In this document: positions 34,763 to 36,721 of the stretch, in pieces
Position numbering within the stretch: the stretch's first letter is position 1
Layout of the letters: each line of letters opens with the position of its first letter
Assembly: GCF_900070365.1 (NCBI RefSeq)
Contig: NZ_LN850107.1
Coordinates: 558,001-622,000 of the forward strand
Reading direction: 5' to 3'
Length of the DNA: 64,000 bases
DNA from: Alloactinosynnema sp. L-07
Lineage (GTDB): Bacteria > Actinomycetota > Actinomycetes > Mycobacteriales > Pseudonocardiaceae
Notes under the pieces: generated by a model
Told to the model about the DNA's origin: nothing
The model's input: the letters and a program-made list of their open reading frames with translations, nothing else
The model's database searches: none
Program-made: the position numbers and the translations under genes

Positions 34763-35812
34763 TCAGGCCGCGGTGCGGGCGGGCAGCAGCTTGCGCAGGT
34801 CGTTCACCGCGGCGCGACCCGCGCGGTTGGCAGCGATAGTGCTGGCCGAAGGGCCATAGCCGACCAGGTGTACGCGGGGATCGGCGACGACGCGCGTGCC
34901 GTCCATGGTGATCCCGCCGCCCGGTCCCCGCAGCCGCAGCGGGGCAAGGTGGTCCAGCGCGGCCCGGAAACCGGTCGCCCAGAGGATCATGTCCGCCTCG
35001 GCGAAGCGGCCGTCCGCCCAGCTCACACTGGTCGGCGTGATCCGGTCGAACATCGGCAGCCGGTCGAGCACCCCACTGCGTCGCCCCTCGATCACCTCGG
35101 GGGTCAGTCCCAGCCCGGTGACGCTGACGACGCTTGCGGGGGACCGTCCCGCCCGCACCGCCTCATCGACGCGCGCCACCGCCGCCCGGCCGTCCTCCTG
35201 GGTGAACGGGCCCGTGCGGAAGATCGGCGGACGCCGGGTGACCCAGGTGGTCCCGGCGGCGAGCGGCGCGATCTCCAGTAGCGCCTGGACCGCCGAAGTT
35301 CCGCCGCCGACCACCACGACCCGCTTGCCGGTGAAGTCCTCCGGTCCTCGGTAGTTCGCGGTGTGGAGCTGCGTGCCGAGGAAGTCCGACTGACCGGGGT
35401 AGTGCGGCCAGAACGGCTTGTCCCAGGTCCCGGTCGCGTTGATCAGGGCCTGTGCGGACCAGACGCCGTGGTCGGTGTCGATCCGCAGCCCGCTCTCGTC
35501 GGTCACCGAGCGCACCTCGACCGGGCGCAGCACCGGCAGGTCGAACGCCCGCTCGTACGCGCCGAAGTAGTCGGCCACCACCTCCGCCGCGGGCCTGCCC
35601 TGGTCGCGCTCGCCGAGAGGGAAGTCGGGCAGGTCGTGGATCCCGTGCACCCGGCCCAGCCGCAGCGTCGGCCAGCGGTGCCGCCACGCGCCGCCAGGGC
35701 CGGCGTTGGCGTCGATGACGACGAAGTCCAGGCCGACCCGGCGCAGGTGATAGGCGCTGGAGAGCCCTGCTTGGCCCGCTCCGATGACGGCGACGTCCAC
35801 CTCGGTGGTCAT
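34763..35812 (-). CDS. Flavin-containing monooxygenase-like (class B) NAD(P)/FAD oxidoreductase
   Basis: The protein has 349 residues. The N-terminal FAD site is in 'VAVIGAGQAGLSSAYHLRR', the fingerprint F-x-G-x-x-x-H-x-x-x-Y is seen as FLGTQLHTANY, and the NADPH site as 'VVVVGGGTSAVQALLEI'. 'LWATGFRAALDHLAP' is the usual C-terminal ATG motif. This is a small class B monooxygenase of YUCCA/ArsO/FMO type. The substrate cannot be read from the sequence. Confidence 0.9.
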   Translation of the reverse strand: MTTEVDVAVIGAGQAGLSSAYHLRRVGLDFVVIDANAGPGGAWRHRWPTLRLGRVHGIHDLPDFPLGERDQGRPAAEVVADYFGAYERAFDLPVLRPVEVRSVTDESGLRIDTDHGVWSAQALINATGTWDKPFWPHYPGQSDFLGTQLHTANYRGPEDFTGKRVVVVGGGTSAVQALLEIAPLAAGTTWVTRRPPIFRTGPFTQEDGRAAVARVDEAVRAGRSPASVVSVTGLGLTPEVIEGRRSGVLDRLPMFDRITPTSVSWADGRFAEADMILWATGFRAALDHLAPLRLRGPGGGITMDGTRVVADPRVHLVGYGPSASTIAANRAGRAAVNDLRKLLPARTAA

Positions 35813-35880
35813 ATCCGCTACAACAACCGCCGCCGTCCAGCCTTCCCCGCGACCGCGTCTGATCGGTCACACTGGCGGGC

Positions 35881-36312
35881 ATGACCGACCACCGCGAGCT
35901 GGCCCGAACCCTGTTCAACAGCGTGTGGGACCTGCTCGACCGGACCGACCGCGGCCCGGCCGACGACGACCGCATGATCCACATGGCGCACGCGTCGCGG
36001 TACCACTGGGGCGAGGTCGGCACCGCGCAGAACCTCATCCGCGGTGAGTGGCAGTGCGCCCGGGTCTACGCGGTCCTCGGCCGGTCCGAGCCCGCGCTGT
36101 GGCACGGGCAGCGCGCGCTGGCGCTGTGCAAGGAGCACGGCGTTCTCGTGGGCCTGATCGGTGCGGCCCGCGATGGCGTGCGCTCTGGCGATGGCCTCGT
36201 AGGCGAAGCCAAGGTCGAAGTCGGCCACGTCGACAAGGCCAACGAGGTCTCCATCGCCGACCCGGAGGACCGTGACCACCTCAAGAAGGACCTCGCGTCC
36301 GTGCTCAGGTGA
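35881..36312 (+). CDS. Conserved hypothetical (TPR-like) protein with an inverted internal segment
   Basis: The 143-residue frame starts like a widespread actinobacterial protein ('MTDHRELARTLFNSVWDLLD', 'AHASRYHWGEVGTAQNL', 'RGEWQCARVYAVLGRSEP', 'ALWHGQRALALCKEHG') and ends like it ('SIADPEDRDHLKKDLASV'). Between them, residues 87-117 read 'VLVGLIGAARDGVRSGDG' and so on, which does not fit. The opposite strand over the same bases encodes the missing core 'VADFDLGFAYEAIARAHAIA'. The segment is thus inverted in place. A CACACT box 7 nt before the ATG suggests a leaderless transcript. The inverted form is probably non-functional. Confidence 0.85.
   Translation: MTDHRELARTLFNSVWDLLDRTDRGPADDDRMIHMAHASRYHWGEVGTAQNLIRGEWQCARVYAVLGRSEPALWHGQRALALCKEHGVLVGLIGAARDGVRSGDGLVGEAKVEVGHVDKANEVSIADPEDRDHLKKDLASVLR
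36141..36232. other. In-place inversion of about 80-92 bp within the preceding gene
   Basis: Read on the minus strand, 36141-36232 gives the expected 'VADFDLGFAYEAIARAHAIA' core of the family. Both sides of it are on the plus strand and in the right order. Short inverted repeats CGTGG (36147-36151) and CCACG (36225-36229) lie at the approximate ends. Exact breakpoints cannot be fixed by eye. Confidence 0.8.
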
Positions 36313-36721
36313 ACCGCGGCGCACGTTCGAGATAGGTGCCGTCCGGCTCGGTGAAGCCGAACGGGCGGTACAGGTCGTGCGCGTCCTCGGTGTGCAGCAT
36401 CCACCGGAACCGCGCCCCCGGGCCGTCGTCGATCATCGCGCGGACCATCGCCTTTGCGATCCCCTGGCCGCGCGCGCTCCGCACCACGTGAAGGTCGGAC
36501 AGGAACGCGAACGCGACGCCGTCGGAGGTCGCCCTGGCGAAGCCGACCTGGGCGCCGGTCGCCCGGTCATAGGCGCCGATGAGCCGCCACGCGCTCGCGA
36601 CCTGGGTCGCGAAGTCCTCGCGGGTCCGCCAGCGGGCCCAGTAGGCCTCGGTCGACAGGAACGCCCACGCCGCGTCGACGTCGATCCGATCGCGATCGCT
36701 GTCCACTTCAAACTCACTCAT
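36305..36721 (-). CDS. GNAT-family N-acetyltransferase
   Basis: A 138-residue GNAT-fold enzyme that moves an acetyl group from acetyl-CoA to an amine. The CoA-binding motif A is visible: 'LHVVRSARGQGIAKAMVRAM'. The end 'DLYRPFGFTEPDGTYLERAP' resembles the GNAT C-terminal strand. The substrate is unknown. It converges on, and overlaps by eight bases, the gene with the inverted segment. Confidence 0.9.
   Translation of the reverse strand: MSEFEVDSDRDRIDVDAAWAFLSTEAYWARWRTREDFATQVASAWRLIGAYDRATGAQVGFARATSDGVAFAFLSDLHVVRSARGQGIAKAMVRAMIDDGPGARFRWMLHTEDAHDLYRPFGFTEPDGTYLERAPRFT

Follow-up and report, generated by a model that had tools for sequence, protein, structure and literature searches.

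An apparent in-place micro-inversion of 81-89 bp inside the coding sequence of a small TPR-like gene in an Actinokineospora genome

The locus and its protein family

The window, a stretch of 64,000 nucleotides that corresponds to positions 558001-622000 of a single contig of 7,405,112 bp, supplies the coordinates used throughout unless another source is named. The host, a soil actinomycete, is placed in Actinokineospora by the names of its closest protein matches. The subject of this report is a plus-strand open reading frame of 143 codons that sits between two genes on the minus strand, one for an FAD-dependent oxidoreductase and one for a GNAT acetyltransferase (Table 1). Its 3' end and that of the acetyltransferase gene, on opposite strands, overlap by 8 bp (36305-36312). 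A search of the whole genome finds the gene in a single copy.

Table 1. Features of the locus and of the dispersed repeat found elsewhere in the genome; repeat copies are placed on contig C1 of this genome (G000), all other features within the window
Feature	Position	Strand	Basis or remark
FAD-dependent oxidoreductase, conserved left neighbour	34763..35812	-	Pyr_redox_3, 1.9e-26
ORF with inverted middle, 143 codons (143 aa)	35881..36312	+	ORF list, homologue search
Left 3-bp end CGT, possible microhomology	36141..36143	+	Alone no better than chance
Inverted segment, outer limit (89 bp)	36141..36229		Gain 109.7 bits
Missing family core, 29 codons, VADFDLGFAYEAIARAHAIAGRTDQAHEN	36142..36228	-	Now readable only on the minus strand; homologue and profile searches
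Inverted segment, inner best fit (81 bp)	36145-36225		Gain 112.4 bits
Right 3-bp end ACG, inverse of the left end	36227..36229	+	Within imperfect palindrome 36220-36243, 80%
GNAT acetyltransferase, conserved right neighbour	36305..36721	-	Acetyltransf_1, 3.5e-9
MITE-like repeat copy (L172)	near 820867
MITE-like repeat copy (L178)	near 951619
MITE-like repeat copy (L182)	near 1022651
MITE-like repeat copy (L189)	near 1162941
MITE-like repeat copy (L191)	near 1211940
MITE-like repeat copy (L201)	near 1407053

The encoded protein belongs to an unnamed, widespread family of all-helical (TPR-like) proteins. A search at E<=1e-3 finds 1477 homologues; 119 of them (P0002-P0120, the query itself excluded) were listed and serve for the family comparisons below, and among the best 80 of 112 confirmed stretches the records of its relatives are labelled Actinomycetota, Chloroflexi, Bacillota and others. 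Similarity to the family runs along the length of the protein provided that the core is contributed by the opposite strand; as translated, the protein is without that core. A Pfam search of the 143 residues returned no family at E<=10, and hence no TPR domain, while some of the listed homologues carry PF13424, which we take to be a TPR family. The closest relative among the homologues listed, P0002, is predicted to fold into seven helices with a mean pLDDT of 96; when this model was compared with the PDB, a single match, to a designed protein, reached E<=0.001, and the numerous weaker matches frequently involve TPR proteins, e.g. Arabidopsis FLU (TM 0.70 and 0.83). Judged by this predicted fold, a protein of the P0002 type is probably a small protein-interaction module.

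A family core on the wrong strand

When the pieces of the protein were searched apart against the 119 listed homologues at a threshold of E<=1e-3, the N part (residues 1-88) matched all 119, with a best identity of 95% to P0002, and the C part (residues 118-143) matched 54, rising to 116 at E<1, whereas the plus-frame middle (residues 89-117) matched none. Conversely, one minus-strand frame of 36141-36232 matched 118 of the 119 (best 83%, again to P0002), and the remaining two minus-strand frames matched none. Counted by residue, the identity to P0002 is 83/87 in the N part, 24/29 in the middle when it is read on the minus strand versus 3/29 when it is read on the plus strand, and 19/27 in the C part. 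An independent search of the whole genome with P0002 gave the same picture, returning a plus-strand match and a separate minus-strand match (residues 88-117) at the same place, with an E value of 1e-8. At the protein level, then, the middle matches the relatives on the opposite strand and in place, with both flanks in normal order.

A profile of the family middle scores 57.6 bits at this locus; of all 2,399,828 positions scored in six frames across 1.2 Mb of the genome, the runner-up reaches -1.4, so that no other position there scores above zero for the family core. Codon composition supports the same reading without recourse to homology: the GC content of codon positions 1, 2 and 3 is 72/48/98 in the N part and 69/31/96 in the C part, but 90/43/73 in the plus frame of the middle and 73/43/90 on its minus strand, an exchange between positions 1 and 3 that is what a flip predicts. 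A preliminary description of this DNA had proposed that both ends of the protein are family-like and its middle is not, that the opposite strand holds the missing core exactly where it belongs, and that the same gene should be compared in relatives; the first two propositions are borne out by the counts above, and in the relatives examined the core lies on the coding strand, with the forward (flipped) reading conserved in none of the 119. At the level of sequence comparison, the in-place flip inside the 143-residue frame is thus confirmed.

Breakpoints and the sequences at the ends

When intervals were scored without gaps against the family profile, a single symmetry axis emerged, at 36185, with an inverted interval of 81-89 bp. 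Four intervals, from 36144-36226 out to 36141-36229, have an identical product and the same gain of 109.7 bits because the ends read CGT and ACG. Shuffled codons, a small null of n=12, gave a maximum gain of 60.7 and a mean of 39.9. The arms CGTGG and CCACG named in the earlier description of an 80-92 bp segment lie off the axis. Taken as breakpoints, these arms (36147-36229) gain -3.6 bits as against 112.4 in the ungapped scan, a figure that small indels could alter, and arms of this kind arise in 21.6% of random coding 92-mers; the suggestion that they flank the segment is accordingly withdrawn.

The longest perfect inverted run shared by the edges is 3 (p 0.19, i.e. 19% of random coding positions reach 3), and 7 of 13 positions at the edges pair (p 0.063). 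Microhomology of CGT with ACG is compatible with the data, and the match of the ends is no better than chance. No inverted pair joins the two edges among 25 of the 29 inverted pairs in 35900-36400. We also considered a larger inversion, given that some tblastn minus-strand alignments reach about 36070, yet the plus strand there encodes the family N part; because of this, and because residues 1-88 are 95% identical to P0002, the minus-strand tail is read as chance. The minus strand of 36070-36141 does have a family-like look past the segment (RALPVPQ...AEDR), which we take to be a chance antisense resemblance.

Consequence for the protein

Being in place, the inversion preserves the reading frame beyond it and, having made no stop, leaves the ORF full-length. 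In the P0002 model the segment corresponds to the helix at 91-106 plus part of the one at 110-121, such that unrelated residues take the place of helix 5 and of roughly half of helix 6 while the sequence of the first four helices stays intact. Residues 91-120 have a mean pLDDT of 53-60 in the protein as it stands versus 97-98 in P0002 (13-row alignments in both cases); the model of the flipped protein is guided by its alignment, and helices still appear in it. Given this replacement of helices, the gene has probably been damaged or inactivated.

Scores against the family vary along the protein: the N part is normal (29 of the 119 listed members score lower), the flipped-out core scores lower than all but 2 of the 119, and the C part lower than all but 1. 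The low scores of the core and of the C part may offer a faint hint, drawn from sequence, of relaxed constraint since the flip. As to the identity of the C part to P0002, 4 of the 29 homologue pairs with similar N identity lie at or below 0.77, and the drop is not significant; the C part keeps a high codon-position GC, and the gene is without visible decay.

Distribution among relatives

P0002, in which the N part, the core and the C part follow in normal order, and P0122, the nearest homologue of the FAD-dependent neighbour, both come from an Actinokineospora sp. MAG, each with a longest contig of 19,174 bp, and on that basis P0002 apparently lies at the same locus as the flipped gene. The FAD-dependent neighbour also has a 90% identical counterpart in Actinokineospora sp. 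HUAS TT18. Searches with P0002 found no orthologue in any of the 15 other genomes of the genus (Actinokineospora), the congeners giving three weak matches of 38-40% identity within ORFs of more than 900 codons; within the family as a whole, matches to P0002 at E<=1e-3, most of them weak, occur in 30 of 390 genomes, a count that includes the present one. The oxidoreductase is present in all 16 genomes of the genus. The acetyltransferase lies near it in 11 of the 15 congeners and outside the stretch examined in the other 4; in 7 of the 15 the two genes are close neighbours with no space for a gene between them, and in 4 (L115, L116, L125 and L128) they are separated by other DNA without a match to P0002. 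The junction between oxidoreductase and acetyltransferase (35812-36312) is thus a variable spot in the genus, and this variability, together with the absence of an orthologue from the congeners, indicates that the gene was probably gained there.

The flipped order was found at none of the other loci and proteins searched. In 81 other family loci (L002, L034-L113), 80 of which have a plus-strand match, not one has an inverted middle; in 10 of these 80 the match stops between residues 102 and 117, and those loci have no minus-strand match. A database search with residues 82-123 recovered only the query itself, 4 candidates having passed the word filter.

Origin of the flip and alternative explanations

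We regard it as very likely that the segment records a lineage-specific, one-off micro-inversion, produced by microhomology-mediated copying or end joining, that damaged a small TPR-like protein. A single in-place event of 81-89 bp would have occurred in this Actinokineospora lineage after its split from the lineage of the P0002 MAG. By what we infer to be the likeliest route, an error of replication or repair would have let a broken or stalled strand use a few bases of microhomology (CGT/ACG) to move onto the opposite strand, copy about 85 bases there and then switch back; alternatively, a flipped fragment may have been joined in a Ku-dependent manner, and Ku is present in the genome. A study of primate microinversions (PMC8755829) describes 8 of 59 cases with only 3-nt flanking repeats; it considers template switching difficult to reconcile with repeats of 3-4 nt and the joining of two nearby breaks through NHEJ improbable at about 20 nt, and proposes microhomology-mediated break-induced replication instead. 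In yeast, template switching at inverted repeats provides a recombinase-free route to inversion (PMC8604942). The objections raised in the primate study make any choice of molecular route tentative; we lean towards microhomology-mediated copying.

A different origin, which we hold to be distinctly unlikely, would be an intragenic switch devoid of arms and of recognisable recombinase sites that flips at low frequency, the gene then alternating between a TPR-like product and a recoded one, or else a recoded version of the gene retained by selection. Reversibility without repeats or a recombinase would amount to a new kind of bacterial switch.

The occurrence of the flipped form in one genome, with one member and one contig in the database, would also be expected of an assembly or consensus artefact confined to a single genome, for which the imperfect palindrome at the right edge (36220-36243) could be held responsible. 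The genome, however, is one contig of 7.4 Mb, the gene is present once, and nothing obvious would cause a spurious yet exact inversion of about 85 bp to arise in such a gene, all of which makes an artefact quite improbable.

Equally slim is the chance that the inversion was kept for the recoding it brought about, the new middle being under selection in a protein with a new function. The frame is indeed intact, the N part scores normally for the family and the C part retains a GC content of the coding type, but a young dead gene would look alike. Moreover, the new middle matches none of the listed homologues, no other protein was found to carry it, it is modelled with low confidence, and the C part and the flipped-out core lie at the low end of the family.

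The preliminary description had left open whether the segment is a switch or a lineage-specific lesion. Reversible in-gene inversions reportedly exist as a class, by the account of Chanin and colleagues in 2024, and a recombinase that flipped the segment back and forth would here let the cell produce the family protein in one orientation and a recoded one in the other. As had been pointed out, the gene can be read through in both orientations, the plus strand being an ORF and the minus-strand reading being free of stops; such openness, however, is to be expected, since 5842 of 8980 (65%) in-gene flips of 81-91 bp placed at random leave the frame open. The genome yields 5 hits to the resolvase family and 19 to the integrase family, and according to one survey the gene for a recombinase may lie at a distance from the site it acts on (PMC5903667); nonetheless, the nearest resolvase-family hit lies about 166 kb from the gene and the nearest integrase-family hit about 377 kb away, in keeping with the earlier remark that no recombinase is known nearby, at least as regards these two Pfam families. 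The same survey gives 10-20 nt as the typical length of the inverted repeats at bacterial invertible sites (PMC5903667), whereas the edges here share 3 bp, without the terminal inverted repeats of an inverton and without any repeat joining them among the pairs considered above. In addition, the flipped form was found once in the database, and the segment is shorter than one persistence length of DNA (about 145 bp), which disfavours looping, although the source argues this for segments below 33 bp (PMC8755829). A site-specific recombinase is therefore probably not the maker of the flip, and a reversible switch of this type is very improbable: the lesion, with the core of the relatives on the coding strand and the flipped reading unique, is the half of the earlier proposal that stands, and the switch is the half without support. 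Inverted gene conversion with another copy of the gene as its source is extremely improbable, as the gene is single-copy and the P0002 search found no second copy that could have been the donor; a plasmid collection gave no match at E<=1e-5.

Comparison with known inversions

A lineage-specific, one-off micro-inversion has partial counterparts in other systems. The microinversions that distinguish human from chimpanzee are likewise short, in-place reverse complements, some with only 3-nt repeats, but they measure 17-33 bp and the only exonic one lies outside coding sequence, whereas the present flip covers 81-89 bp of coding sequence in a bacterium and exchanges some 27-30 codons (PMC8755829). 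Spacer inversions by template switching in yeast resemble it in that they fall in coding sequence, keep the frame and change amino acids; they differ in lying between inverted repeats of more than 9 bp with spacers of a few bases, in contrast to the much longer segment studied here, which has no such repeat (PMC8604942). Bacterial invertible sites and intragenic invertons share with it the recoding or disruption of a gene by a flip, but here there is no inverted repeat of 10-20 nt and no recombinase was found nearby (PMC5903667, PMC11868660). Within the literature covered, by title or abstract opening, no recombinase-free micro-inversion inside a bacterial gene is described.

Taken together, the flip has the look of a genuine, rare mutation, and it is most likely a lesion that happened once and not a genetic switch. 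It is a clear-cut case within bacterial coding sequence for which the order before the flip is available in a relative at the protein level, and it illustrates that in-place flips which keep the frame and create no stop can pass for intact genes, and that homology on the opposite strand can reveal such lesions.

Recurrence in the genome

Recurrence was assessed by scanning 1.2 Mb of this genome (G000) against one congener (G014), from which the gene itself is absent. The best aligned pieces cover 476,707 of 1,200,000 bases of G000 (477 kb) at 82% identity, some of them not collinear. There were 29 opposite-strand hits at collinear places, and none of the 29 passed the inversion filter in these 477 kb; a spike-in control detected 181 of 194 artificial 85-bp flips at the first step, a figure that refers to that step only. 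With no second case in 477 kb and 181 of 194 spike-ins seen, these results suggest that in-place flips are rare at this divergence and that the part of the genome examined has no general tendency toward them. One hit of 48 bases (784081-784128) failed narrowly, with scores of 49 on the minus strand, 26 on the plus strand and 36 for its own hairpin, and by eye it looks like a GC-rich quasi-palindrome. The opposite-strand hits that were inspected include a dispersed repeat of about 139 bp, and many others were self-complementary or matched the plus strand too. The repeat is MITE-like and is bounded by terminal inverted repeats about 30 bp long; 1.2 Mb of G000 contains 6 copies of it, and 1.2 Mb of G014 gives 26 BLAST pieces.
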